From the NCBI RefSeq assembly GCF_031127875.1, contig NZ_JARXIA010000021.1, forward strand, positions 62,001-126,000: a stretch of 64,000 nt of DNA, written 5' to 3'. The translations under genes and the position numbers were made by a program. Position 1 is the stretch's first letter. The number at the start of each line of letters is the position of its first letter. Of this stretch, positions 27,369-62,187 are shown in pieces. The DNA is from Pelagicoccus sp. SDUM812005. Its GTDB lineage: Bacteria > Verrucomicrobiota > Verrucomicrobiia > Opitutales > Opitutaceae. Below the pieces are notes generated by a model. That model worked only from the letters and a program-made list of their open reading frames with translations, was not told the origin of the DNA and made no database searches.

Positions 27369-28397
27369 CTAATCTCCCCTGAAAGTCTTGCCTTCCCACA
27401 TTTCGCCAACCACCAAGCTTACGCAACGACTCTCCGGGATCCCCTTTTCATTCCGAAAGAGCTGTGCCGCCACCGCATCTATGGCTAGCCTCCCGAGAGT
27501 CGTGAGGGGAAGGTGGATCCCGGAATACTCAAGAGTATCCGCCATAACCGCAGGCGTGACAAGACCCACATCCCTCGGAACTTGAACCCCGATGGACCCC
27601 AGCCATCGCCTCACGTCGTCGTAAACCGTAACGATCACCTCTGGCTTGTATTCGCTGTACCACTTCAAAAAAACATCGCGTTCCCAGCGGTCCGCAACCA
27701 AAACGGGGATCCGAGTCGCGGACTCGAGTTCGTCCCGAAAGAACTCAAAGGCCGAACGAAACTGGTAACGCACGCGATTATCAATAAATCCCGATATCGC
27801 CAATCCGATCCTAGTTACCTTGCTTCCACGCAAACGGGAAAAGATCAGTTCCATGTTACCAAGATGGTCGAACCCGACGTTGTGATAATTTGGATACGCG
27901 ATCGAATCGCCGATCAAAACGGTCGAAAAGCATTCCCATTCCATACCAAGCCTCACCTTCGAGTCCCGGTGTGGACCGATCACGACCCCGTGTATGCCCC
28001 GGCTTTGCAATATCCCCTTCAATCGATCCCAAGACAGGTTGGCTTCTTCGTAGCAAAAAGGCTCCAACTTATAACCCAGTTCGTTCGCCCTCTCTCGCGC
28101 TCCTTCGTAGGCGCCCTTGTGCGTGAAGTCCTTCGCTAACATCTGTTTCAGCGGGCGATCTGACAAATAGGCCAAGGTCGCAACGTAGCCCGACTTGGAC
28201 TCCGAACGGCGAACGTTCGATAAATGAACCGCTACCAAGGGATTCGCGACGTACCCCATCTCAGTAGCGATCCTCTGAATACGTTTCCGCGTCTCCTCAG
28301 CGCATTGAGAACTGCTCTTCAACGCATAGGCGACCGTCGACTTCGAAACGCCCGCCCGCTCCGCTATATCCCGAATCGTTACCCGCTTCCCCTGCAT
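27369..28397 (-). CDS. LacI-family transcriptional regulator 1
   Basis: 342 residues. The N-terminal helix-turn-helix VTIRDIAERAGVSKSTVAYAL (about 6-26) is classical LacI. It is followed by the linker region (MGYVANPLVAVHLSNVRR) and a periplasmic-binding-protein-like sensor domain (THKGAYEGARERANELGY, GIHGVVIGP, RIGLAISGF). It is divergent from the GH78 gene at 28514, and their 116-base shared promoter contains the palindrome TGGACGTGTCCA. The same palindrome precedes the GH78 gene at 42031, so a plausible regulon is this gene plus both rhamnosidases. The inducer is probably a rhamnose-containing sugar (inference). It is less similar to the other two regulators here than they are to each other. 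Confidence 0.9.
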   Translation of the reverse strand: MQGKRVTIRDIAERAGVSKSTVAYALKSSSQCAEETRKRIQRIATEMGYVANPLVAVHLSNVRRSESKSGYVATLAYLSDRPLKQMLAKDFTHKGAYEGARERANELGYKLEPFCYEEANLSWDRLKGILQSRGIHGVVIGPHRDSKVRLGMEWECFSTVLIGDSIAYPNYHNVGFDHLGNMELIFSRLRGSKVTRIGLAISGFIDNRVRYQFRSAFEFFRDELESATRIPVLVADRWERDVFLKWYSEYKPEVIVTVYDDVRRWLGSIGVQVPRDVGLVTPAVMADTLEYSGIHLPLTTLGRLAIDAVAAQLFRNEKGIPESRCVSLVVGEMWEGKTFRGD

Positions 28398-34908: not shown

Positions 34909-35934
34909 ATGTCCAAAAGATTTGAGCCCGTTTCCCAGCTCGATATAGCTAAAGCATTGGGCATAAGCCAATCCACGGTTTCTCTCGCCTTGCGAGGTAA
35001 CGATGAGGTTTCAGAAAAGACGCGTCGACAGGTTGCTTTAAAAGCAAAGGAATTGGGCTACGTGCATAACCCAAAAATGGGAGCCCTTACCAGCTACCGC
35101 CAAACGAGCTCAATAAAGCGAGTCGTACCAAGGCTCGCTTGGGTCACCAATTTCCCGACAGAGAAAGGCTGGAGAAAATCACACAACCTCAAGTACTACA
35201 ATGGGGCAAGGCGAAGGGCAGCAGAGCTGGGGTTTGAGTTGGTCGAATATTGGTTAAGCGATGTACGAGTATCTAAAGAAAAACTACAAAAAGAACTGAC
35301 CAATCTAGAAATAAGCGGGCTACTATTCGCGCCTCAGGCAACACTCGAAGCCAAAATCGACTTGGATCTTACCGCCTTCTCATCCGTTTCTATCGGGGGC
35401 TCGCTGAAGTCTCCGATTCTGCATTCCGTTGATAGCCATGCTGTAGGCAACGTTCAGCAAGCCGTCCTAAATTTACGCCTTCGTGGTTACAAAAGAGTTG
35501 GGCTAGCGGCATGCGATAGCATAGATACGAGAGTGGATGGCGCCTACTCTGGGGGATTCTTGAGTGTCGACGATGGCGGAGCCATTCCCCCATTCATGAT
35601 CGAACCCTTTGATCATAACTCATTCGGGCATTGGTTCAGACGTTGGCAACCCGATGCGATTGTCGCCTGGGGCGACTACTTAACCAGGATTGAGAGTTGG
35701 CTGGTGGGACATGGCATCGAGGTGGGAAGAGAGATCGCCTTAGCGGGACTGGACCTGGAGGACGAAAAGGGTAAGTACGCTGGAATTTACCAGCAATCCG
35801 AACTGATCGGAGAAGTCGCGGTCGAGACCCTTGTCACCTATTTCAACCAATTTGCCTACGGGGTTCCCGAATATGCTTACCAGACTTTGATAGATGGACG
35901 CTGGGTTGATGGGCGGAGCGCTCCAGGAAAGTGA
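34909..35934 (+). CDS. LacI-family transcriptional regulator 2
   Basis: 341 residues. The helix-turn-helix is SQLDIAKALGISQSTVSLALRG (about 9-30), then KELGYVHNPKMGALTSYR as linker in place of the usual LacI hinge. The sensor domain follows (WRKSHNLKYYNGARRRAAELGFELVEYWL, ISGLLFAPQ, RGYKRVGLAA). It is clearly paralogous to regulator 3 (40452-41720), and the two flank TonB receptor 2, suggesting a regulator-receptor-regulator unit. A weak stem (CTCCA/TGGAG) and a T-run follow the stop. The effector is probably a sugar imported by the neighbouring receptor (inference). Confidence 0.9.
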   Translation: MSKRFEPVSQLDIAKALGISQSTVSLALRGNDEVSEKTRRQVALKAKELGYVHNPKMGALTSYRQTSSIKRVVPRLAWVTNFPTEKGWRKSHNLKYYNGARRRAAELGFELVEYWLSDVRVSKEKLQKELTNLEISGLLFAPQATLEAKIDLDLTAFSSVSIGGSLKSPILHSVDSHAVGNVQQAVLNLRLRGYKRVGLAACDSIDTRVDGAYSGGFLSVDDGGAIPPFMIEPFDHNSFGHWFRRWQPDAIVAWGDYLTRIESWLVGHGIEVGREIALAGLDLEDEKGKYAGIYQQSELIGEVAVETLVTYFNQFAYGVPEYAYQTLIDGRWVDGRSAPGK

Positions 35935-36113: not shown

Positions 36114-39100
36114 TTAGAAGCTGAAGCTATTGCTCAGGCGGAATGTAGTCGGGCGGTTGAGACCGAAGACTGGGCTGCCGTCCGCGTTGACGCGGATGAT
36201 GCGCAGGTCGTCACCTTGCTTGAAAACATTGTCCACATTCAACTGGACGCGCCAGTCGATCTTGTCGCCGCTGAGCTTGCTCTTGTAGTTGAGCATCAGT
36301 CCACCCGTTACGTGCGAGTCGCCTTCATACGGGTTGTTCACGTCGCGACGGACTGGCTGGAACTCTGCACCATCGATCTGTCCGTCCCCATTCGTGTCTG
36401 GATTCGGGAAGTTGAATGGCAGTTCGTCCAGTCCAACGGGAATCGAGGTGTAGCCCAAGGCCTTGCCGCTTTCCCAACGGAGATTGGTGCCAAAGGAGAA
36501 GCCCTTCATGAAACCGTCGCGGAAACTGTAGTTCGCCGTGATACGAGCGTTGTACTCGGAGATACCGTGGCTGGCTACACCTTGCACAGCGATCGCCTCG
36601 AGGATGTCGTCACCTACGGTGTTATAGAATCGAGCGGCGAGTAGGCTGTCGTCCGAAGCCCGGCCTCCAAGGTTGTCGACCAGGAAGCTGTTGGCAGGCA
36701 ACGGGCCATCCGCATCCGGTGCGGTATCCCAAACAGGCAGGTCACCGTTATCGGCAGCGATCGACCCTGGTCGAGCGAAGTACTGAGTCGCATCGTTGTG
36801 GCCATTGGTGTGGTAGCCTGCCTCGATGAACTGATTCCAGTACTCGCCGCGCAGCGCCACGTACTCGAGGGTTTGGGAGTGCACGTTCGAGATCGCATTC
36901 TCGAGGCGTGAAACGCTTCCTCGGAGTCGCAGGTTCTTCGTTGGGTTCCAAGTGCCGCTTAACTCCCATCCTTTGGATACAGAATCGAAGGTGGTGTTCG
37001 AATCCTCGGGTCGCTGCCACCTTTGAGCTTCGTCGTCGTAGGTCCACTGAGGAACCCCGGCGCCATTGACGATCTGCTCGCCGGTCTCCTCGTCGATATC
37101 TGGAATGCGAGTGAAACCGCGCTCAACAATGAGATTGCCGCTTGCGTCGATGCCGGCCACACGCTCCCAGTCCTCGATGGTGTACGGAGTGTCTTCGCCG
37201 TTTTCGATGAAGCGCTGGTCGAGAGCCTTAAGGGCGGAGTGCACAGCCGATTCGAAGCTGACCATGCGCGACCAGACGAGGCCGTTGCCTTGTCGAGCGT
37301 TGACCTGCGCCGACTCGAATACGTTGAACTTCAGGTCGAGCTTGTTCTCAAACAGGCTCATACCGAAACCATACTCGGTCGTTTCACCCCCTTGGGAAGG
37401 AATGCGTCGACCGAAGCCGTCGAAGTTAACGGTAGACAGGTCGAAGTTCTCCGACTCGTTATAAAAGAAGCGCAACCAAGGCGTAGCGTGGAAAACGATA
37501 CTACCGGTCATGAGTTCCTCTTTTTGGACGTCTTCGGTCGAAACGTTTACAGACGTATCCCAGTCGGAGCGCTCGTCCCCATCGCTGACGCGGTCCCAGG
37601 CGGGCGTAGGGTCAGGGTACCGATCGTAAATCACAGTTTCGACTTCGTCGGAGCGCCAGCCCAGCGTCGTTACGATTCGATTGTTCCAAAGGTAACTCTG
37701 CAAGGAAGTGCCATATCCTTTCTGGTCCAGACCGTTAAAGGCAAGCGTGCCGCCAATGATACCGGGACCAATCTCAAGCCCCTCTTCGCTTACCGCCCAT
37801 CGACCTCGGTCGTCATTGCCGGTCGTGTCGTAGTAGTAGTGACCAATGCGATTGTTAAGGTGCGGACGGGTGCTGTCTGGAGCTCCCGTGAAGTTTAACG
37901 TCGTATCACCGACCTGTACTGGATCGCCTACATAGAAGATCGGCCAGAACCACCGGTTCGCTGAATGCTGGTCGTTCGGACCGGTTCTCGCAAGGTCCTC
38001 GTTGTAGGTGGCTACATCACTCGCACGGTATTTCAGCGCGTCATCCCTTGAAACGGAACCAAACACGGTCATGCGGTGCAAGCCGAGGAAGCCAAGCCTA
38101 TCAGAGCGGTCCCTAAAATCTAGGTCGTAGTTCGCTTGGAATAGCGCTGCTTCCGACTGGAAGTCCTCGTAGCCACTGATGTGACGTCCATGGAAGAACG
38201 GGCGAAGGAAGTTCGGGTTCTGCTCGCGATTGGCAACCTGCTCAAGGAAAAGCGCGTTGTTGGCAGCGATCTCTTCAAGCTCACCCTCCCCTGGGAGACG
38301 TGTCTTGTTGCCTACTCTACGAATCGTTAGCGAACCACCATTGTTGATGTGATCAATAATCGCCTGCGCTTGTGCAACGGCTTCATCAAGCGTCGGATCG
38401 ATGCTGGCGCCTCCTGGGAATGCAATCACGTCACCTTCTGGACTGAGAAGGTTAGCTACCTGAGGAGCTCCGAAGAAGAGGCCAGGGTCCTGAATCGCGC
38501 CTGGGAGGTAACGGTTAACGTCGATCGAGATCGCTTGCGATTGGGCGAGCGGACCGAAGTTTTGGTTACGTTCGTAGTCCTCTTTCAGATACGAAAACGA
38601 AAGGTACAGATCCTCGTTTACTTTTTGTTCCCAATTGAAGCCGAACTTCTGACTCTTAACTTCCTGGAAGTTTCCGGGCAAGGTGCTAAGCTCTTGATCG
38701 TAAATCGGGAAGATGCTCTCGTCGAGTACCTGCGGGTCAGCGAAAGCGTTACCGTCGCGGTTGTCGAATGGATGGGAACTGCGGGCGAAACGAAGACGAG
38801 CACGTGGGTACGCGTTACGTCCGTTTCCGTTTTGCGGCTGTCCTCCGTTGGTCCGAATAGTACCGTAGATGGATGTCAGGCCTTCGCCACCAGGGCTGTA
38901 GGGGATCGACCAGTCTCCACCGGAGTAAGTTGCATCCCCAGAGTAGTAGCCGGTGAATGCGCGGTCGCGACCATCCATGTGACGAACATATCGACCTTCG
39001 AATTGCAGAGGGTTGCCGTCGGCGTCCGTTCTGATACGCTCATCGAAGACGTAGTCTCCCGTCGCTGTTGGTTGACCGTTTGAAGTTCCGGGCCAGGAAG

Positions 39101-40079
39101 CGTCCCAGATGAAATTGCGCTCGCGGAACTCCTCGAGGCTCATGTCACCATAACGATCCGGATCTTCCGCCTGTAGCTCAGCGAGGCGGGTACCTGCGTT
39201 GTTCCAAGCGTTGAGCCAATCGCTGACATTGTCCTGTGGCAAACGGTAGTTAGGACGGCGACCGAAGGCGGAACTGCGCTCGACGTATGCGTCGAACGTT
39301 GTTTTCTCGAAAGGCTTGTATCTAAATGTCAGATACGCCTTGCGATCAAGATTCTCTGCAGTTTTCGCCATGTAGCGTGTGTCTGAAACGACACCCGCGA
39401 AACGGACCGCCAGCTTATCCTCTATCAAAACACGGCTGAAGTCGACCTGCACACGGCGAGAACCGAAATTGTCGAGACGGAAGTTGATATTATTGATATC
39501 GCGACGGAGCTGAGCCTTTTTGGTCGTATAGTTCACCACGCCAGCGGGGCGGCCGAGTCCGAAGAGAAGCGAATTCGGACCTCTCAGAAACTCCGTACGC
39601 TGCATATTGTAGCGGTCAAGCGGACCGCGAACCTTCAGGTAGTTGGCCGACTGAGTCGCACGCCCTAGACCACGGATTCGAACTGAACTCTCTCTGGAAT
39701 TAGGGTCAGAGAAGTCACCTCCGATGTATCCGCCGCCACCAGGGTTAGCGATGCTCTGCGTATCGTTTGTTAAGTCGGTATCGACACCGGCCAACATCGA
39801 AAGAGCTCCGTCGAGATCGGTGGCTCCCAAGTCGTCTAGGAAGGCGTCGGTCAAAACTTCGACCGATGCGGCCACGTCCTTTAGCTGCGTATTGAGACGG
39901 CTTCCAGCTGTGGTAGACTGCGCGCGATAACCATCATCGCCTTCGTTCGTCACCGTAAACGGAGACAGCTCGAAGATATCCTCTTCATCGCTGTCTTCGG
40001 TTTGGGCAACAATGTGCGCCCAAGGGGTCGCGGCTGCTAACGAAAGCGCTAGCCAACCACTTTTAGGGATCTGTTTCAT
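36114..40079 (-). CDS. TonB-dependent outer-membrane receptor 2
   Basis: 1321 residues. The signal peptide (about 1-26) ends IVAQ, followed by the acidic segment DSDEEDIFELSPFTV, the plug domain (LNTQLKDVAASVEVLTDAFL, VRIRGLGRATQSANY, FLRGPNSLLFGLGRPAGVVN) and a long barrel ending LSNSFSF with terminal Phe. It is about 200 residues longer than receptor 1, mostly from extended loops in the barrel (for example around residues 330-430), which may form a larger binding surface. No SusD partner is present. It is flanked by two paralogous LacI-type regulators and divergent from regulator 3. Uptake of an oligosaccharide is inferred from context. Confidence 0.92.
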   Translation of the reverse strand: MKQIPKSGWLALSLAAATPWAHIVAQTEDSDEEDIFELSPFTVTNEGDDGYRAQSTTAGSRLNTQLKDVAASVEVLTDAFLDDLGATDLDGALSMLAGVDTDLTNDTQSIANPGGGGYIGGDFSDPNSRESSVRIRGLGRATQSANYLKVRGPLDRYNMQRTEFLRGPNSLLFGLGRPAGVVNYTTKKAQLRRDINNINFRLDNFGSRRVQVDFSRVLIEDKLAVRFAGVVSDTRYMAKTAENLDRKAYLTFRYKPFEKTTFDAYVERSSAFGRRPNYRLPQDNVSDWLNAWNNAGTRLAELQAEDPDRYGDMSLEEFRERNFIWDASWPGTSNGQPTATGDYVFDERIRTDADGNPLQFEGRYVRHMDGRDRAFTGYYSGDATYSGGDWSIPYSPGGEGLTSIYGTIRTNGGQPQNGNGRNAYPRARLRFARSSHPFDNRDGNAFADPQVLDESIFPIYDQELSTLPGNFQEVKSQKFGFNWEQKVNEDLYLSFSYLKEDYERNQNFGPLAQSQAISIDVNRYLPGAIQDPGLFFGAPQVANLLSPEGDVIAFPGGASIDPTLDEAVAQAQAIIDHINNGGSLTIRRVGNKTRLPGEGELEEIAANNALFLEQVANREQNPNFLRPFFHGRHISGYEDFQSEAALFQANYDLDFRDRSDRLGFLGLHRMTVFGSVSRDDALKYRASDVATYNEDLARTGPNDQHSANRWFWPIFYVGDPVQVGDTTLNFTGAPDSTRPHLNNRIGHYYYDTTGNDDRGRWAVSEEGLEIGPGIIGGTLAFNGLDQKGYGTSLQSYLWNNRIVTTLGWRSDEVETVIYDRYPDPTPAWDRVSDGDERSDWDTSVNVSTEDVQKEELMTGSIVFHATPWLRFFYNESENFDLSTVNFDGFGRRIPSQGGETTEYGFGMSLFENKLDLKFNVFESAQVNARQGNGLVWSRMVSFESAVHSALKALDQRFIENGEDTPYTIEDWERVAGIDASGNLIVERGFTRIPDIDEETGEQIVNGAGVPQWTYDDEAQRWQRPEDSNTTFDSVSKGWELSGTWNPTKNLRLRGSVSRLENAISNVHSQTLEYVALRGEYWNQFIEAGYHTNGHNDATQYFARPGSIAADNGDLPVWDTAPDADGPLPANSFLVDNLGGRASDDSLLAARFYNTVGDDILEAIAVQGVASHGISEYNARITANYSFRDGFMKGFSFGTNLRWESGKALGYTSIPVGLDELPFNFPNPDTNGDGQIDGAEFQPVRRDVNNPYEGDSHVTGGLMLNYKSKLSGDKIDWRVQLNVDNVFKQGDDLRIIRVNADGSPVFGLNRPTTFRLSNSFSF

Positions 40080-40451
40080 ATTATATAGTTATATAGTTTG
40101 CGTTTCTTTTGTATTCACACTCTTCAGCGCACGCTCAAATACCTTGAAACCAGTGAACGTGTATACGTAGTTCAACTACAGAAACATACGACCATTCGGG
40201 GCATGGGGTCTTAAGGGCGGGGAGAGCTTACGAAGTTAATAAGGTTTTTGACATCCTCATACGCAATTTATTTTGGGTCATTTAAATTCGATGCGTATTA
40301 GTTTTAATAATCGATACGTATTATATTAATTCACAATTTGACTCTAAATCCCTACCTTCGCTTTGAATAAGTTATTCCCATTTTAAAAATAACGGCTCTG
40401 CCAACGCGGCTTTAGACGCTCATATTCACAGAATTACATCCTACTCTCACA
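40080..40451. promoter_or_regulatory. Divergent control region with several candidate operator half-sites
   Basis: AT-rich, between receptor 2 (minus) and regulator 3 (plus). Near the receptor lies the palindrome GTAGTT-C-AACTAC at 40167-40179. Nearer the regulator lie ATACGCAA at 40259-40266, TCGATGCGTATTA at 40288-40300 and TCGATACGTATTA at 40311-40323. The last two are direct repeats spaced 23 bases apart with one mismatch; the first is their inverted partner. TTGACA at 40248-40253 could be the regulator's -35 box. The arrangement suits a regulator with more than two DNA-binding heads. Confidence 0.5.
40167..40179. promoter_or_regulatory. Candidate operator GTAGTT-C-AACTAC
   Basis: A perfect 6-base-arm inverted repeat about 90 bases before the start of TonB receptor 2 on the minus strand. 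Confidence 0.35.
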
Positions 40452-41720
40452 ATGCCCGGTAGCGTAAAACCAGTTCGTCAAATCGATATCGCGATGGCCT
40501 TGGGCATTAGCCAGACCACGGTGTCACTCGTCATGAGGGGGGACGCGCGCATACCGAAGAAAACTCGTGAAAAGGTCCTTTCTAAGGCTCGGCAACTAAG
40601 CCTCCAAAGCTCATCCTCTCCTCCATGCGGAAGTCCTTCAAACAAACCACGCCAAAACTTCGCCTCAACCAGCAAGCCAAGTCGTATAGGACAAGCTCAG
40701 ATAGCCCGAGAACTCGGACTTAGCCAGTCGACCGTTTCGGAAGCTCTGAGGGGCAGGAAAAACGTTTCCGTTCACACTCGGGCAGCGGTACTCGCCAAAG
40801 CTGAAGAACTTGGCTACGTTCCGGACCCCAACTTAGTTGCCCTGTCAAACCGAAGATCAAGCAAACGTAAAAAGAAGTTCCTAGGAACGCTGGCATGGGT
40901 AACCAACCACGACTCATCCGACGAATGGAGGAAAGGTGAGACGACTCGCAGACAATACAACGGCGTAGCAGCACGATCAGCGAAATACGGATACAAGTTG
41001 GAAGAATTCTGGTTAGCTGACCCTAATTTGACGAACCAAGAAGCCCGCGAGATACTGCTAGCCCGAGGAATACGCGGCTTGATTCTCGCACCTCAGCCAA
41101 CTTACGGGGCACGACTTGATTTCGATTTTTCCGATTTCTCTGCCGTCACCTTTGGTACTACCTTGGAACACCCTCTCCTTCACCGGGTAGGTAACCACCT
41201 GCAATCGTCAACCCGTATGGCATACCAAAAGCTCAAGGAGCTTGGATACAAAACGGTTAGTCTTTGTGTCAGTGAGGACGTCGATAGACGTACCAATAAT
41301 TGCGTGAGCGCTGGATACCTAAGTATGAAAAAGCAGGTTAGTGAATCTGAATTCATACCGCAATTTATATACCGAGACCTCGACAAGCGAAGCTTTCTTC
41401 GATGGTTCGAGATGCATCGCCCAGATGGCATTCTCACCATGAGCTGGGCGGCTGCAACCATAAGACAATGGCTCGAGTCTGAAGGTCTAAAGATCGGCGA
41501 AGATTTTGGAATAGCTGTTCTAAATTGGCATGACTCTAGAAGATTCATGGCAGGCATCGATCAAATGCCTACGCAATTGGGAGAGGCAGCAGTAGATGTC
41601 ATACACAGATTGCTGAGAAATTCCGAGTACGGCATCCCCCCTTACCACAGTCGTACCCTCTTATCGGGAGTCTGGAGAGATGGCGACAGCGCCGCTCCAA
41701 GGATCACTTTTGAACCGTAA
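40452..41720 (+). CDS. LacI-family regulator 3 with two tandem helix-turn-helix domains
   Basis: 422 residues, about 80 longer than a usual LacI protein. A first complete LacI-type DNA-binding domain lies at about 8-50 (VRQIDIAMALGISQTTVSLV). A Ser/Pro-rich linker (50-77) follows, and a second DNA-binding domain at about 79-129 (GQAQIARELGLSQSTVSEAL, then ELGYVPDPNLVALSNRR). The sensor domain follows (RQYNGVAARSAKYGYKLEEFWL, IRGLILAPQ, GYKTVSLCVSED) and resembles regulator 2. Both helix-turn-helix copies keep the core 'GxSQxTVS'. A dimer would present four DNA-reading heads, which fits the cluster of half-sites upstream. Such a duplication is rare in this family to my knowledge. Confidence 0.88.
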   Translation: MPGSVKPVRQIDIAMALGISQTTVSLVMRGDARIPKKTREKVLSKARQLSLQSSSSPPCGSPSNKPRQNFASTSKPSRIGQAQIARELGLSQSTVSEALRGRKNVSVHTRAAVLAKAEELGYVPDPNLVALSNRRSSKRKKKFLGTLAWVTNHDSSDEWRKGETTRRQYNGVAARSAKYGYKLEEFWLADPNLTNQEAREILLARGIRGLILAPQPTYGARLDFDFSDFSAVTFGTTLEHPLLHRVGNHLQSSTRMAYQKLKELGYKTVSLCVSEDVDRRTNNCVSAGYLSMKKQVSESEFIPQFIYRDLDKRSFLRWFEMHRPDGILTMSWAAATIRQWLESEGLKIGEDFGIAVLNWHDSRRFMAGIDQMPTQLGEAAVDVIHRLLRNSEYGIPPYHSRTLLSGVWRDGDSAAPRITFEP

Positions 41721-42030: not shown

Positions 42031-44757
42031 ATGAAACCACTGATTCCATTTTTGACCCTAGCATTCACGTGCATTGCGCGCCTCGCCGCGACTCCGCAAT
42101 CCCCCGTAGAGCTGAAACTTTCCGAGGGGTTTAAGAACCCTTTCGGCTTTTACGACGCCGCACCCAGCTTCTCTTGGCAACTCCCCGCTGACCCCCAAAG
42201 TACATCACAGACCGCCTTCGAAATCGTTGTCGCTAGCGACCTGAACCTTCTCTTTGCAAACGCGGATCGTTGGAACTCCGGAAAAGTAGCGAGCGATCAA
42301 TCCCTCTACATCCCTTACCACGGTGCCAAACTTTCCTCTCGAGAGCGAGTGTATTGGTCCGTCCGATACTGGAACCAACACGACGAAGTCTCTCCCTGGG
42401 CGGAACCCGCAAGCTTCGAGCTCGGCCTTCTCACCAACGACGACTGGCAAGCCAAATGGATCGGCTTCCCAGGTCACGGCAAAAATGAGCGGACCCAATA
42501 CGACACGCCCCTCTACCGTCCCGTCTATTTCCGCAAAGACTTCTCCGCCAAGGCCGACGTCGTCAACGCTCGTCTTTACATCACCGCCAAAGGCCTCTTC
42601 GAGGCCCACATCAACGGCCAACAAATCGGTCAAGACCGCATGGCTCCGGGCTGGACTCCCTACCACACCCGCGTCGAAACCCTCACCTACGACGTCACCA
42701 AAAATCTGGCGCAAGGCGAAAACGCCATCGGCCTCATCCTCGCCGAAGGCTGGTACGCCGGTCGATTCGGCCCTAAGCGCACCTGGGGCAACGAACCGCC
42801 TCCTGAAATCATCTGCCAACTGGAAATCGAGTACGCCGACGGCTCACAGCAAAAAGTCCTCACCGACAGCTCCTGGCTCGCCACCACCGACGGCCCGATC
42901 CGCACCTCCGGCATCTACGACGGCGAAACCTACGATGCAAATTACGAGATGCCGGGCTGGAACCGGCCTGGCTTCGCTGCCACCGATTGGATTCAATCCG
43001 TCGAATTTCCCATCGACTCCAAAATCCAACTACGCCCCAAGCGCCACTTCACCACCCGCGACAAGCTCGAACTCACTCCGATCTCCATCTCCCAACCCGC
43101 GCCCGACACTATCGTATTCGACATGGGACAAAACATCGTCGGTGTGCCCCGGATCTCGTTGCCCATGAAGAAGGGCCAAACCCTTCGTACTCGAGTCGGC
43201 GAAGCCCTCAACCGCGACGGCACCCTCTTCACCGGAAACCTCGGCACCGCCAAGTCGATAAATAACTACACCGCCGCCGAAAACGGCATCGCCGAATGGC
43301 AACCCCAGTTTACCTTCCACGGCTTCCGCTACATCGAGGTAACGGGTCACGACAGCTCGCAACCGCCAGAATTCAGTTGGGTCAAAGGCGTAGTGCAATA
43401 CACCGACTTCGAGGACACCGGCCACTTCGAAACCTCCGACGTCAACATCAACCAACTGCAAAGCAACATCCTCTGGGGCCTTCGTGGCAACTTCCTCGAT
43501 ATCCCTACCGACTGCCCGCAGCGCGCCGAACGCCTCGGCTGGACCGGTGACGCTCAGGTCTTTGCCCCTACCGCCCTCTTCAATTCCGACCTGCACGCCT
43601 TCTGGAGCGCTTGGCTGCAAAGCATGCGAGAGGAGCAGTACGACGACGGCCAAATCCCCGTCGTCATCCCAAACGCCACCGGGAAGTTTACCGAAACAGG
43701 ATGGTCTGATGCTTGTACTATCATACCTTGGGAAACGTATTGGAGAACCGGAGACAAAAAGGTTCTCGAAGAAAACTACGACATGATGCTGCGCTGGCTC
43801 GACTACAGCGCCACCCACGTCACCGACGGCATCAGCACCCAACGCACCGTGGGCGACTGGCTTCAGCCGTATTCTCAGCAAAAAGACGAGCGACGCGGCG
43901 ACACCGACAACTCCCTCATCTCCACCGCCTACTACGCTCGCTCCATCGAACTCACCCAACGCACCGCCGAAGTCCTCGGAGACACGGGAAAAAGCAAGGA
44001 ACTCAAAACCCTGCACACTTACGTCAAACAGGCGTTCCAAAAGCGATTCTTCGACTCCGACGGCCGCCACACCGGAGCTTTCGAGACCCAAACCAGCTAC
44101 TTGCTCGCTCTCGGCTTCAATCTGCTCTCGCCCGATATCGCTAAAAAAGCCGCCAACCACCTCGTCCGCTCCTTAGAAAACGCCGACGGACACCTCCGTA
44201 CCGGATTTTTGGGCACGCCGCTCCTCGCTCCGACCCTCGACAAAATCGGACGCCAGGACCTCGCATTCGATCTGCTCTTCAAGGAAACCTATCCCTCTTG
44301 GCTCTTTTCCGTAAGCCAAGGCGCCACTACTATCTGGGAGCGTTGGGACGGCTACACCCACTTGCACGGCGTCAATAAAAGCCAAGGCTCGCTCAACCAC
44401 TACGCCTACGGCGCCATCGGCGAATGGATGTACGAACGCGTCGCCGGTATCTATCCCCTGGAGGCCGGATACAAAAAAATCCGCATCGCTCCCCTCGTCG
44501 ACAGTCATCTCACGTATTCAAAAGGTGCATACCAATCTCCCTACGGCCTCATCGAATCCGAATGGAAACTCAAAGACAACACTCTCCAGCTCTGGCTCAC
44601 CATCCCACCCAACACCACCGCAATCGTCACTCTGCCAGAGCCCTACACTCAAAATGTCCAAGTAAGCGGCAAACCGTATCAGCTGGAGGCAAATTCAAGC
44701 CTACAGCTCGAACCGGGGACGTATCACCTAACAGCCTCTGGACCAGCCAGTCCGTAG
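42031..44757 (+). CDS. Secreted GH78 alpha-L-rhamnosidase, canonical motifs
   Basis: 908 residues with a signal peptide (about 1-20). The full GH78 order is present: Fn3-like start (VELKLSEGFKNPFGF, FSWQLPAD), N-terminal sandwich (LYITAKGLFEAHINGQQIG, APGWTPYHTRVE), second sandwich (VFDMGQNIVGVPRI), catalytic barrel and C-terminal domain. The motif TDCPQRAERLGWTGD (Asp494, Glu500, Asp507) is the canonical form, and GATTIWERWDGY supplies the later Glu. Of the six GH78 proteins here it is nearest to well-studied members, so activity on ordinary alpha-L-rhamnosides is most likely for this one. Probably controlled through the palindrome at 41902-41913. Confidence 0.93.
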   Translation: MKPLIPFLTLAFTCIARLAATPQSPVELKLSEGFKNPFGFYDAAPSFSWQLPADPQSTSQTAFEIVVASDLNLLFANADRWNSGKVASDQSLYIPYHGAKLSSRERVYWSVRYWNQHDEVSPWAEPASFELGLLTNDDWQAKWIGFPGHGKNERTQYDTPLYRPVYFRKDFSAKADVVNARLYITAKGLFEAHINGQQIGQDRMAPGWTPYHTRVETLTYDVTKNLAQGENAIGLILAEGWYAGRFGPKRTWGNEPPPEIICQLEIEYADGSQQKVLTDSSWLATTDGPIRTSGIYDGETYDANYEMPGWNRPGFAATDWIQSVEFPIDSKIQLRPKRHFTTRDKLELTPISISQPAPDTIVFDMGQNIVGVPRISLPMKKGQTLRTRVGEALNRDGTLFTGNLGTAKSINNYTAAENGIAEWQPQFTFHGFRYIEVTGHDSSQPPEFSWVKGVVQYTDFEDTGHFETSDVNINQLQSNILWGLRGNFLDIPTDCPQRAERLGWTGDAQVFAPTALFNSDLHAFWSAWLQSMREEQYDDGQIPVVIPNATGKFTETGWSDACTIIPWETYWRTGDKKVLEENYDMMLRWLDYSATHVTDGISTQRTVGDWLQPYSQQKDERRGDTDNSLISTAYYARSIELTQRTAEVLGDTGKSKELKTLHTYVKQAFQKRFFDSDGRHTGAFETQTSYLLALGFNLLSPDIAKKAANHLVRSLENADGHLRTGFLGTPLLAPTLDKIGRQDLAFDLLFKETYPSWLFSVSQGATTIWERWDGYTHLHGVNKSQGSLNHYAYGAIGEWMYERVAGIYPLEAGYKKIRIAPLVDSHLTYSKGAYQSPYGLIESEWKLKDNTLQLWLTIPPNTTAIVTLPEPYTQNVQVSGKPYQLEANSSLQLEPGTYHLTASGPASP

Positions 44758-45118: not shown

Positions 45119-45655
45119 ATGGCACTTCCGGACAAAAACGAGTGGTTCGAGGAGGAAATAGAACCTCACGAATCCTCACTGAAGGCGTGGCTTCGCAACC
45201 AATTCGGGATCGAACATATCATCGACGATATCGTTCAAATCGCCTACATGCGCGTCCTGAGAGCCCAGGACAAGGGAACAATCTCCTCACCCAAAGCCTA
45301 CCTCTTCAAGACCGCCCGCAATGTCGCCATTGACCAACTCAAGGACCTGAAGAAACGCCAAGCCGAACCGTTGGAAAACCATACCAATATCGTCTATTTG
45401 GAAAATTGGGACAACGCGAAGGACATACTCGAACACCGAAACGAGGTCGAACTACTCAAAGCTTCCATAGCGGCCCTCCCCCAGCGCTGCAGAGAAATAT
45501 TTGTGATGCGAAGGTTGCACGGCCTAACAAGCGCTGAAATATCGCGTAAATTAGGAATCTCTACGCACACGGTTTCCTCTCAATTGACCATTGGTCTAAA
45601 AAAGTGCACTGAATTCATAGAGCGGGCAACAAACCGGCCTAAGCGGCTGCAGTGA
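45119..45655 (+). CDS. ECF (FecI-type) RNA polymerase sigma factor
   Basis: 178 residues. Region 2 lies at about 20-90 (HIIDDIVQIAYMRVLRA, SPKAYLFKTARNVAIDQL), and region 4 at about 113-165 (LPQRCREIFVMRRLHGLTSAEISRKLGISTHTVSS is its helix-turn-helix part). These are typical of extracytoplasmic-function sigma factors of the iron-citrate type. The anti-sigma gene starts one base after the stop, so the two are translationally coupled. With the STN-containing TonB receptor downstream, this forms a cell-surface signalling set: ligand at the receptor, message to the anti-sigma, release of sigma. Target promoters are unknown; the receptor gene itself is the first candidate. Confidence 0.93.
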   Translation: MALPDKNEWFEEEIEPHESSLKAWLRNQFGIEHIIDDIVQIAYMRVLRAQDKGTISSPKAYLFKTARNVAIDQLKDLKKRQAEPLENHTNIVYLENWDNAKDILEHRNEVELLKASIAALPQRCREIFVMRRLHGLTSAEISRKLGISTHTVSSQLTIGLKKCTEFIERATNRPKRLQ

Positions 45656-45656
45656 A

Positions 45657-46709
45657 ATGAGCAAAAAAGGTTATACTAAAATAGAAGACCAAGCAGCAGA
45701 ATGGGCTTTAAAGATCGAAGACGGCTTAACCGTCTCGCAGGAAACCGAACTCGAAGCCTGGCTAAGGAAACATCCAGACGCTGAAAGCCAATTGGCAAGA
45801 TTCCAGAAGTCATGGGAACGATTCGAAATCCTAGACCCTCAGCACTTCCCAATGGAAAGCTTGCATCCGGACGAAGCGCAAAGCGCTCCAAGCATCGGAT
45901 TCTTCGCTAAGAAGTGGCGTTGGGCAATCGGAGCCGCAGCTGCTATCGCCATTTTTGGAATCGGTCTTTCGCTCCACGAAAGGAGCCACCAGGAAACAGC
46001 CTATTCCATGCATACCTACCGCTATACGGAAGGTGACTTCTACGAGCTCGAGGACAGGTCGACGCTGGATCTGAATGACGGAGCGGTAGTGGAAAGCAAA
46101 TACTCGGAAGATCGTCGCGAATTTTGGATAAAGAGCGGAGAGGCATACTTTACGGTAGCAAAAGACCCGGACCGTCCCTTCGACGTCTATGCGGGTGAGA
46201 CGCGCCTGCGGGCGCTGGGCACCCAATTCAATGTCAGGTTCTACGATTCAGCTGTAGAAGTGCTCGTTACCGAGGGAATCGTATCGCTCTCCCTCTCAAA
46301 ACCGAATGAGCTAGATACAATCGAGCAAAAATCGGATACAGAACAAGCGCATAAAAAGTTAATTCGAAACCAAAAAGCAGTCGTCCATCAAAGCGCCGAC
46401 CACCAAAGCGGTTACGTCGTTGAAGAAATAGAAGAAGAGGAAGTCTCGGAAATCCTGCTATGGAAACCAGTCACCTTGAAATTCGACTCTACCCCGCTCT
46501 CCGAGGTCGTCGCTCGCTTCAACCGCTATAACGACAATAAAATAGTAATCGCAGATGAACGCATCGAGGCGTTGCAAATAGTAGCGACTTTCCGCTCCAA
46601 CAAGATAGAAGGCTTTATCAACTTGCTTCAGGCTACCTCAAACGTAGTAGCTGAATACAAGGGAAACCAGATAATCCTCACGAGTAAAAACCGGGAGAGC
46701 CGACACTAG
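45657..46709 (+). CDS. FecR-type anti-sigma factor (membrane sensor)
   Basis: 350 residues. The cytoplasmic part (about 1-85) contains AAEWALKIEDGLT and ELEAWLRKHPDAESQLARF, the sigma-binding segment of FecR proteins. One membrane helix lies at about 87-106 (RWAIGAAAAIAIFGIGLSL). The periplasmic FecR domain follows (YELEDRSTLDLNDGAVVESKY is its typical start, GTQFNVRFYDSAVEVLVTEG its core). A C-terminal STN-like/DUF4974 domain occupies about 265-345 (LKFDSTPLSEVVARFNRYN). It would hold the preceding sigma factor inactive until the receptor's STN domain signals. A glutamate-rich stretch (EEIEEEEVSE, about 256-265) links the two periplasmic domains. Confidence 0.93.
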   Translation: MSKKGYTKIEDQAAEWALKIEDGLTVSQETELEAWLRKHPDAESQLARFQKSWERFEILDPQHFPMESLHPDEAQSAPSIGFFAKKWRWAIGAAAAIAIFGIGLSLHERSHQETAYSMHTYRYTEGDFYELEDRSTLDLNDGAVVESKYSEDRREFWIKSGEAYFTVAKDPDRPFDVYAGETRLRALGTQFNVRFYDSAVEVLVTEGIVSLSLSKPNELDTIEQKSDTEQAHKKLIRNQKAVVHQSADHQSGYVVEEIEEEEVSEILLWKPVTLKFDSTPLSEVVARFNRYNDNKIVIADERIEALQIVATFRSNKIEGFINLLQATSNVVAEYKGNQIILTSKNRESRH

Positions 46710-60717: not shown

Positions 60718-62187
60718 TTACGAAACCTCAGGCAAATGTTGAACCCACGGATCCTGGGTCTTTCGCAACCAAGGCTTTAGCTCCGTCCGAACCAGTTCAG
60801 CCACCAAGTCCGGCCGGGCAGCCGCGATATCTTCCAACTCGTAGGGGTCTTCTTGCAGATCGTACAGGGCACGGCGCGGAGGACCGGTCTCGCCAACTTC
60901 CAATACGAGCTTGTATCGAGAAGTTCTGACACCCCGGGTTCCTCGCTCGGGTTGGTCAGAGGACATTCGTAGGTAGAGCTGGGAAGAAGGACGATCCCCG
61001 CCTTCCCCTCTAAAGATTCCTGCGTGGCTATTCCCCTGCACAGACTCCGGCACCTCATCGGCAAAGCCCATCAAGTCCAGCAAGGTGGGATATAGGTCTG
61101 GGGTGGAGAGCAACAAATTGTCGCTCCCGGGAGCGATCTTGCCCGGCCAACGAATCAAGAACGGCACCCGCATGGACTCTTCGAAGGGGTTGTTTTTAGA
61201 AACCTCCCCGTGAGTGCCCAGACAATCGCCGTGGTCGGAGGTGAAGACTACAATTGTATCGTCCTTCAAGCCGGCGTCATCGAGCGCCTTTAAGATTCGT
61301 CCGAACTGCTCGTCTACACCTGTGACACTGGCGAAGTAGTCGCGCGTATTGGCTTCAGCCTTGGGATGAGCGGGATCGACGTTTGGACGAACCAACAAGT
61401 CCTCGAGCGACTTGTCGGCATAGGGTTTGCGATAACGATCTGGATACAAATGGTAAGGTGGGTGCGGAGGGTTCATCGCCACTACGAGCGCAAACGGCTT
61501 TTCCGAGTCACGCTTTGTCCCGTCCTTATTGCCGATAAAGTCGATAGCTTTGTTCGCTTCGTGTTCTGGACTCCACTGATCGACGAAATGATACTCGTCG
61601 CGCCCGGCGTTCGTCTCCCAATACATGGGGCGATTGTGATCGTTGTAGGTGCCATATGAATACCAATAGTCGAATCCGTGCCTACGCTCGGGCGGACACC
61701 AGGTATTCCACTTGGGATTGGCATCGATAAACGGCTCGCGCGGAGCGTCGAGGTGCCACTTGCCGATGTAGCCCAAACTGTAACCCTGAGACTTGAGGAC
61801 ATCCGACCAACAAACCTCGTCCTGCTGCAACTCGACGTCGTACTGGGCTCGATCCGCGCGACAGTTCCCAGTCACCTTGTTGGCATGCGAGTACTTGCCG
61901 CTCATCAGCATGCCGCGGTAGGGACTGCACAGCGGATAGTTGGCCACGGTCTGAGGCAGGGAAAGACTCTCCCTTGCGAAGGCGTCCAGATGCGGCGTGA
62001 CCACTGGATCCTCGTTCAAGAATCCAAGCGCCTGACCGCGCCACTGGTCCGGAAAAACGAATACCAGGTTGGGACGTTTGCCACTGCTCGCATTGGCCGA
62101 CCCTAAAAGTGACGAAGGCAGAACCGAGGCAGCCATAGAAGCGCCAGCTGTTTTCTTAACGAAATCGCGTCTCGTGAGATGCTTCAT
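60718..62187 (-). CDS. S1 sulfatase with twin-arginine (Tat) signal
   Basis: 489 residues. The N-terminus MKHLTRRDFVKKTAGASMAA has the RRxFxK pattern of Tat signals, unlike the Sec-type signals of the other sulfatases here, so this enzyme may be exported folded. RPNLVFVFPDQWRGQALG is the metal-binding start (Asp-Gln), PLCSPYR carries Cys87 of the CxPxR formylglycine motif, and FTSDHGDCLGTHGEVSKNNPFEESMRVPFLIRWPG completes the active site. It starts 6 bases after the GH78 gene upstream on the same strand ends, so the two are co-transcribed and probably act on the same sulfated rhamnose-containing substrate. Confidence 0.92.
   Translation of the reverse strand: MKHLTRRDFVKKTAGASMAASVLPSSLLGSANASSGKRPNLVFVFPDQWRGQALGFLNEDPVVTPHLDAFARESLSLPQTVANYPLCSPYRGMLMSGKYSHANKVTGNCRADRAQYDVELQQDEVCWSDVLKSQGYSLGYIGKWHLDAPREPFIDANPKWNTWCPPERRHGFDYWYSYGTYNDHNRPMYWETNAGRDEYHFVDQWSPEHEANKAIDFIGNKDGTKRDSEKPFALVVAMNPPHPPYHLYPDRYRKPYADKSLEDLLVRPNVDPAHPKAEANTRDYFASVTGVDEQFGRILKALDDAGLKDDTIVVFTSDHGDCLGTHGEVSKNNPFEESMRVPFLIRWPGKIAPGSDNLLLSTPDLYPTLLDLMGFADEVPESVQGNSHAGIFRGEGGDRPSSQLYLRMSSDQPERGTRGVRTSRYKLVLEVGETGPPRRALYDLQEDPYELEDIAAARPDLVAELVRTELKPWLRKTQDPWVQHLPEVS

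Follow-up and report, generated by a model that had tools for sequence, protein, structure and literature searches.

The LacI/GalR family, which includes LacI, PurR, CcpA and RbsR, is a textbook family of repressors whose members share the order helix-turn-helix (HTH), hinge and sensor. A different arrangement is found in AraC/MarA-type regulators, which carry two HTH domains per chain, closely joined. In the excerpted text of Ravcheev et al. 2014 (PMC4052901), the LacI layout, a single N-terminal HTH with a single effector domain, is called rigid. No description of a LacI protein with a doubled HTH was found in titles and abstract openings, a scope that most subscription journals fall outside.

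The locus described here lies in Pelagicoccus sp. SDUM812005 (NZ_JARXIA010000021.1, positions 62,001 to 126,000); the window is this whole 64,000-nt stretch of DNA, and all coordinates refer to it. The protein encoded at 40452–41720 resembles the LacI/GalR family in the order of its second HTH (HTH2), hinge and sensor and in the position of its gene beside sugar-use genes. It differs in carrying an extra complete LacI HTH (HTH1) in front, attached by a Ser/Pro linker and lacking a hinge of its own. Two HTHs per chain are a departure from the usual LacI layout, not from LacI homology. The protein shares this number with AraC/MarA-type regulators, but AraC belongs to another HTH family, the linker of the host protein is predicted to be disordered, and no AraC family was present among the best 25 of its 33 Pfam matches.

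Domain architecture of the doubled regulator

A preliminary description of the locus, made from the sequence alone, had proposed two complete, non-decayed HTH domains joined by a Ser/Pro-rich linker ahead of a single sensor in one continuous reading frame, and each of these elements was borne out. ORF 40452–41720 is open throughout (422 aa) and has the following parts:

40452–41720, plus strand: LacI/GalR-type regulator with two HTH domains, 422 aa (ORF, Pfam, AlphaFold2)
40473–40604, plus strand: HTH1, residues 8–51, no hinge behind (PF00356, model, domain comparison)
40605–40685, plus strand: Ser/Pro-rich linker, residues 52–78 (translation; pLDDT below 50 at 57–72)
40686–40817, plus strand: HTH2, residues 79–122 (PF00356, model, domain comparison)
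40818–40865, plus strand: hinge segment, residues 123–138 (translation, AlphaFold2)
40878–41696, plus strand: periplasmic-binding-protein-like sensor (Peripla_BP_3, model, Foldseek)

The LacI profile PF00356 matched the ORF twice above its cut-off of 27 bits (HTH2, 40.8 bits; HTH1, 31.3 bits), and the sensor was matched by Peripla_BP_3 (PF13377; residues 260–392, 28.1 bits, cut-off 26.5). The host genome has 39 PF00356 matches, 37 of them above the cut-off; two lie in ORF 40452–41720 and the remaining 37 occur one per place, making this the sole doubled LacI ORF in the genome. The expectation that LacI proteins normally carry one HTH is therefore upheld in this genome, in agreement with the excerpted text of Ravcheev et al. 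2014 (PMC4052901).

An AlphaFold2 model of the 422-aa chain (29-row alignment, mean pLDDT 89.6, pTM 0.67) predicted both HTHs with ten-residue pLDDT means of approximately 93–96, with helices at residues 10–17, 21–28 and 36–53 in HTH1 and at 81–88, 92–100 and 107–120 in HTH2. The linker between them is predicted to be disordered (pLDDT below 50 at residues 57–72). A hinge helix follows HTH2 (residues 126–138, pLDDT block means 75, then 51), no hinge helix is attached to HTH1, and the sensor is well predicted; the model gives no mutual placement of the domains. Foldseek matched the model to the Lac repressor (1efa), SghR (7ce1), RbsR (9ny8) and entries for CcpA and PurR, with TM scores of 0.4–0.5 on the query because the extra HTH domain is loosely placed.

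In-frame ATG, GTG or TTG codons occur at residues 1, 15, 17, 24 and 28, and none was found between residue 28 and the end of the scan at residue 160. A start at residue 15 or beyond would cut HTH1. As there is no ATG, GTG or TTG from residue 28 to 160, no ordinary start exists between the domains, where initiation would require a rare codon (e.g. ATA at 79 or 84), and a start downstream of HTH1 was ruled out on this ground.

The integrity of HTH1 was assessed with a profile built from 153 training domains, with both HTH1 and HTH2 left out. HTH1 scored 59.6 bits and HTH2 68.9 bits, relative to a 5th percentile of 59.4 and a median of 71.6 for the training domains. At positions 10, 14, 16, 19, 20, 21, 34 and 35 of what we take to be the LacI numbering, HTH1 has A, G, S, T, V, S, T and R, each the commonest residue among the 153 domains compared, in keeping with the earlier statement that both copies retain their core residues. 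The recognition residues at positions 17, 18 and 22 are Q, T and L in HTH1 and Q, S and E in HTH2, and Glu at position 22 occurs in 4 of the 153 domains. HTH1 ends in Ser-Leu at its C-terminus, compared with Gly-Tyr in HTH2. By these measures HTH1 is intact, though among the more divergent of intact domains. The doubling of the LacI-type HTH in this protein is real.

Gene neighbourhood and candidate sites in the shared promoter

The genes and sites relevant to the regulator are as follows:

36114–40079, minus strand: TonB-dependent receptor with Plug domain (Pfam), divergent from the regulator and its likely target by position
42031–44757, plus strand: alpha-L-rhamnosidase (Pfam), downstream, a possible target by position
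34909–35934, plus strand: single-HTH LacI paralogue, its HTH the closest to HTH1 among those compared (Pfam, domain comparison)
40288–40300, plus strand: repeat 1, TCGATGCGTATTA, with CG-centred core ATGCGTAT, candidate operator (motif scan)
40311–40323, plus strand: repeat 2, TCGATACGTATTA, with CG-centred core ATACGTAT, candidate operator (motif scan)

The TonB receptor gene is flanked by the two regulator genes, 34909–35934 and 40452–41720. With a third at 27369–28397, they bring the LacI-type regulators in this part of the window to three within 15 kb, in the company of TonB and glycosidase genes; by eye, one sulfatase and two further rhamnosidase-like genes are present as well. A sigma-factor-like and FecR-like gene pair (45119–46709, by eye) adjoins the rhamnosidase gene.

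The 372-bp region between the regulator gene and the divergent TonB gene contains two copies of TCGATRCGTATTA, 23 bp apart, and weaker copies at 40163 and 40259. The candidate core ATRCGYAT is symmetric, and the two cores ATGCGTAT and ATACGTAT are symmetric over 8 bp only. The excerpted text of Ravcheev et al. 2014 (PMC4052901) describes LacI operators as mostly even palindromes with a central CG and reports intersite distances that peak at 13, 22 and 32 bp. On that account, pairs spaced by about 22 bp are common for ordinary LacI proteins, so the 23-bp pair is no proof that HTH1 is used.

Two or more exact copies of ATRCGYAT arose in 1 of 1000 shuffles of the region, and 6 of 1000 gave four or more copies when one mismatch was allowed, for a motif that was picked after looking; a 13-mer direct repeat equally good arose in 55 of 1000. 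A promoter-like site on the minus strand, pointing toward the TonB gene, has a −10 box that overlaps repeat 2; two promoter-like sites were found in the region, and 1.4 are expected by chance. Allowing one mismatch, CGATRCGTATTA had 27 matches in the genome and its reversed control 15. Among the 20 of these 27 that were examined, two are the pair in the window, and 17 of the other 18, both further exact copies in the genome included, lie within frames of at least 150 codons, one lying outside such a frame; a wider regulon of the repeat is thus unsupported. No copy with two or fewer mismatches was detected near the paralogue 34909–35934.

Single-HTH relatives and genome surveys

The nearest relatives of the doubled regulator share 41–43 % identity with it in the sensor and have one HTH each. 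Among the matches listed, the closest full-length relatives (G000:C43, G019, G007 and G003; 44–46 %) align from residue 76 or 77 on. When residues 1–135 were used as the query, at least 55 of 252 family genomes returned a match, and among the matches listed only that in the host genome covered the query end to end. Likewise, 40452–41720 was the only doubled member of 162 LacI-like ORFs in the loci compared (some of them overlapping), and no orthologue keeping HTH1 was present among the matches listed in the genomes searched. The preliminary description had treated two things jointly as grounds for doubt, close homologues without the first domain and decayed contact residues within it. The first is what we found; the second is not, the contact residues of HTH1 being undecayed.

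Profiles of two concatenated HTHs (A1 and A3) were used to catch doubled proteins with other linkers, and each count of such proteins given here is a minimum. A1 picked out only the host genome and G259 among the matches listed for the 252 family genomes (E 1e-20), and only the host genome among those listed for 387 phylum genomes. A1 missed the doubled proteins of G046, G160 and G275; A3, which includes the host and G259 proteins as rows, recovered all three. In the 252 family genomes, A3 matched at least 12 places in 10 genomes (E 1e-19 or better), five of the 12 with two full HTHs and seven single. Doubled LacI ORFs therefore occur in at least five of 252 family genomes (host, G259, G160, G046 and G275). 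The A3 searches of 372 order genomes (at least six places listed; two doubled, host and G046, and four single) and of 363 phylum genomes (at least eight listed; the same two doubled and six single) drew on overlapping samples. Eleven further places with alignments into or past HTH1, or in very long frames, all had a single HTH. No single place covering 80 % of the double-HTH query was found in plasmids (72,556 records, 126 with a match) or phages (50,697 records, four with a match). Separately, one 7.4-Mb genome of the same family (G012) returned 184 first-look candidates for the doubled regulator and 215 for its HTH pair, which suggests a very large LacI expansion.

A separate clade of doubled regulators in four other genera

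The search for the same architecture in relatives was productive: doubled LacI proteins are present under four other genus codes of the same family, namely L187 (G259:C121), L188 (G160:C120), L182 (G046:C3) and L189 (G275:C36). They lie in stop-to-stop frames of 413–468 codons, and the G259 protein has two LacI stretches (88.6 bits, Pfam). Like the host protein, they combine two LacI HTHs with one sensor; unlike it, they have a linker about 21 residues long that includes a hinge-like NPLxSxLM stretch, where the host protein has about 27 Ser/Pro-rich residues, and their sensors belong to another clade.

A FastTree phylogeny of 131 sensors placed the host protein with the 34909–35934 paralogue and the C43 group (L058, L003, L002 and L004), which have one HTH only and are its closest sensor and HTH relatives (support 0.996). 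The four doubled proteins formed a clade of their own (support 1.0) among single-HTH relatives. An IQ-TREE analysis of 31 of the 131 sensors agreed (supports 99 and 100) and required two trait changes for the doubling. A single clade of all five doubled proteins was rejected on the same 31 sensors (p-AU 0.004), in a test that used a quick tree search and a group named only after the first tree had been seen. We therefore rejected a common doubled ancestor of the host protein and the four-genus clade, as the two are separate in both sensor trees and the p-AU value is 0.004. The doubled LacI group in four further genera is new and branches apart from the host protein, and on these sequence comparisons doubling of the LacI HTH probably arose more than once in the family.

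The doubling is patchy within genera. In the genus of G046, one of 13 genomes has it, and the next relatives (40–44 %) align from HTH2 on and are single; in the genus of G259, one of three genomes has it, and a full-length-looking match in G260 is single. The doubled gene of G046 adjoins GH2, MFS and GH31 genes, and the other three have similar neighbours (by eye).

For HTH1, dS and dN were 0.61 and 0.19 between L187 and L188 (dN/dS approximately 0.32) and 1.21 and 0.21 between L182 and L189 (approximately 0.17), and by these values HTH1 of the four-genus clade is under purifying selection. The corresponding dS and dN for HTH2 were 0.34 and 0.20 (L187/L188) and 1.17 and 0.05 (L182/L189), those for the sensor 0.46 and 0.09 and 1.57 and 0.18, respectively; purifying selection on HTH2 of L187 and L188 is only weak.

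The motif TRGCATCGTTYAAT lies just upstream of the doubled regulator in all four clade loci, and an inverted copy with one or two mismatches lies just past the doubled gene in three of them, 1.25–1.29 kb away; two further matches elsewhere have three mismatches each. The sites are:

L197: 7297 and 8552
L198: 8439 and 7187
L199: 7581
L200: 7615 and 6326

Around these seven sites GCATCGTTYAA is conserved, and within 40 bp on each side only three more, scattered, columns are. The motif is a probable operator of the four-genus doubled regulators, judged by its position and conservation, and its paired copies may possibly serve looping. It lacks dyad symmetry, and no second conserved half-site was present within 40 bp of the 11-bp core in this clade. 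The preliminary description had pictured a dimer contacting four half-sites or bridging two operators; the lone 11-bp core speaks against a simple four-half-site operator in the four-genus clade.

Origin of HTH1

Among the HTHs compared, HTH1 is closest to that of the neighbouring regulator 34909–35934 (24 of 44 residues identical), compared with 19 of 44 for HTH2. HTH2, in turn, is closest to the HTHs of the C43 group (29 of 44). A domain tree, with modest supports from an alignment of 44 residues, joined HTH1 to the 34909–35934 HTH (0.82) and placed HTH2 beside the C43 group (0.80); the seven domains together formed one clade (0.89). Internal duplication is less likely in light of the lower identity to HTH2 than to the paralogue and the pairing in the tree, and we favour a fusion in which HTH1 was taken over from a paralogue, the 34909–35934 regulator being a relative of its likely source. 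In one relative (L010), two LacI genes lie head to tail in overlapping stop-to-stop frames (22–1107 and 1011–2153); an HTH fusion could plausibly have begun from a gene pair of this type.

Proposed role and alternative explanations

Our preferred reading, which we regard as evenly poised between right and wrong, is that the protein is a LacI/GalR-type repressor of the divergent TonB gene in which HTH2 and its hinge are the canonical reader and HTH1, acquired by fusion, is a tethered second grip. Going by gene order and family, it would be a dimer that responds to sugar and represses the TonB receptor gene, its own gene and perhaps also the alpha-L-rhamnosidase gene. The retained HTH-hinge-sensor order points to HTH2 and the adjoining hinge as the canonical operator contact. 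HTH1, derived from the HTH of a paralogue and attached through some 27 residues of flexible linker, would add a second DNA contact, and the dimer could thereby take hold of an adjacent site, for instance the second of the 23-bp-spaced repeats.

A rather unlikely alternative, though one with several points in its favour, is that HTH1 is a folded relic of the fusion that makes no specific DNA contact, leaving an ordinary LacI dimer that binds through HTH2 and the hinge. The closest relatives among the matches listed do without HTH1, its profile score is close to the 5th percentile for intact domains, it has no hinge of its own, and pairs of sites are usual with single-HTH LacI proteins too in the excerpted text of Ravcheev et al. 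2014 (PMC4052901). However, no contact residue of HTH1 has decayed, its fold is confidently predicted and the frame is open, and HTH1 is under purifying selection in the separate four-genus clade.

HTH1 might instead alter the sequence that is read, the two HTHs forming an AraC-like pseudo-dimer or reading, each in a different way, an operator that is asymmetric or compound. This idea, which we consider distinctly improbable, arises because the HTH2 residue corresponding to LacI Arg22 is an unusual Glu, seen in so few of the domains compared; it would also fit the differing recognition residues of HTH1 and HTH2 and the missing dyad symmetry of TRGCATCGTTYAAT. The candidate core in the host, on the other hand, is symmetric, and the linker is long and predicted to be floppy. 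Nor is asymmetry confined to doubled proteins: the conserved upstream blocks of two single-HTH groups are also non-palindromic over their full length, and we rejected operator asymmetry as a mark of the doubled proteins.

It is very unlikely that HTH1 competes or cooperates with the 34909–35934 paralogue at the sites of the latter, or binds distant sites (e.g. in looping). The closeness of the two HTHs in identity and in the domain tree, and the TonB gene flanked by both regulators, would agree with such an interplay, but the repeat has no copy near the paralogue with two or fewer mismatches, and position 18 differs (T in HTH1, S in the paralogue). The chance of a gene-call artefact, with translation beginning behind HTH1, is negligible: by eye there is no clear Shine–Dalgarno sequence ahead of the first ATG, but no in-frame start lies between residues 28 and 160, and untranslated DNA would by chance have to encode an intact HTH above the Pfam cut-off.

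Implications for the LacI family

Returning to the tethered second grip, a broader reading that we advance tentatively, and hold to be on the doubtful side, is that LacI regulators of this family gained a second HTH at least twice independently, so that a single dimer reads a compound operator with built-in cooperativity. If this is true, the operator would consist of two spaced palindromes or of two different half-sites, and one chain would hold the cooperativity that other LacI proteins obtain from two dimers.

The doubled layout is surprising in so stereotyped a family, and the second clade lends it more support than a lone odd protein could. Where a genome has 39 PF00356 matches, doubling could be one of the means by which paralogues are kept from cross-talk. 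Doubled LacI proteins would provide naturally occurring designs for regulators of longer or compound operators, and a layout that arose at least twice and was kept in four other genera would put to a natural test how domain gain shapes the evolution of operator recognition and of cooperativity.
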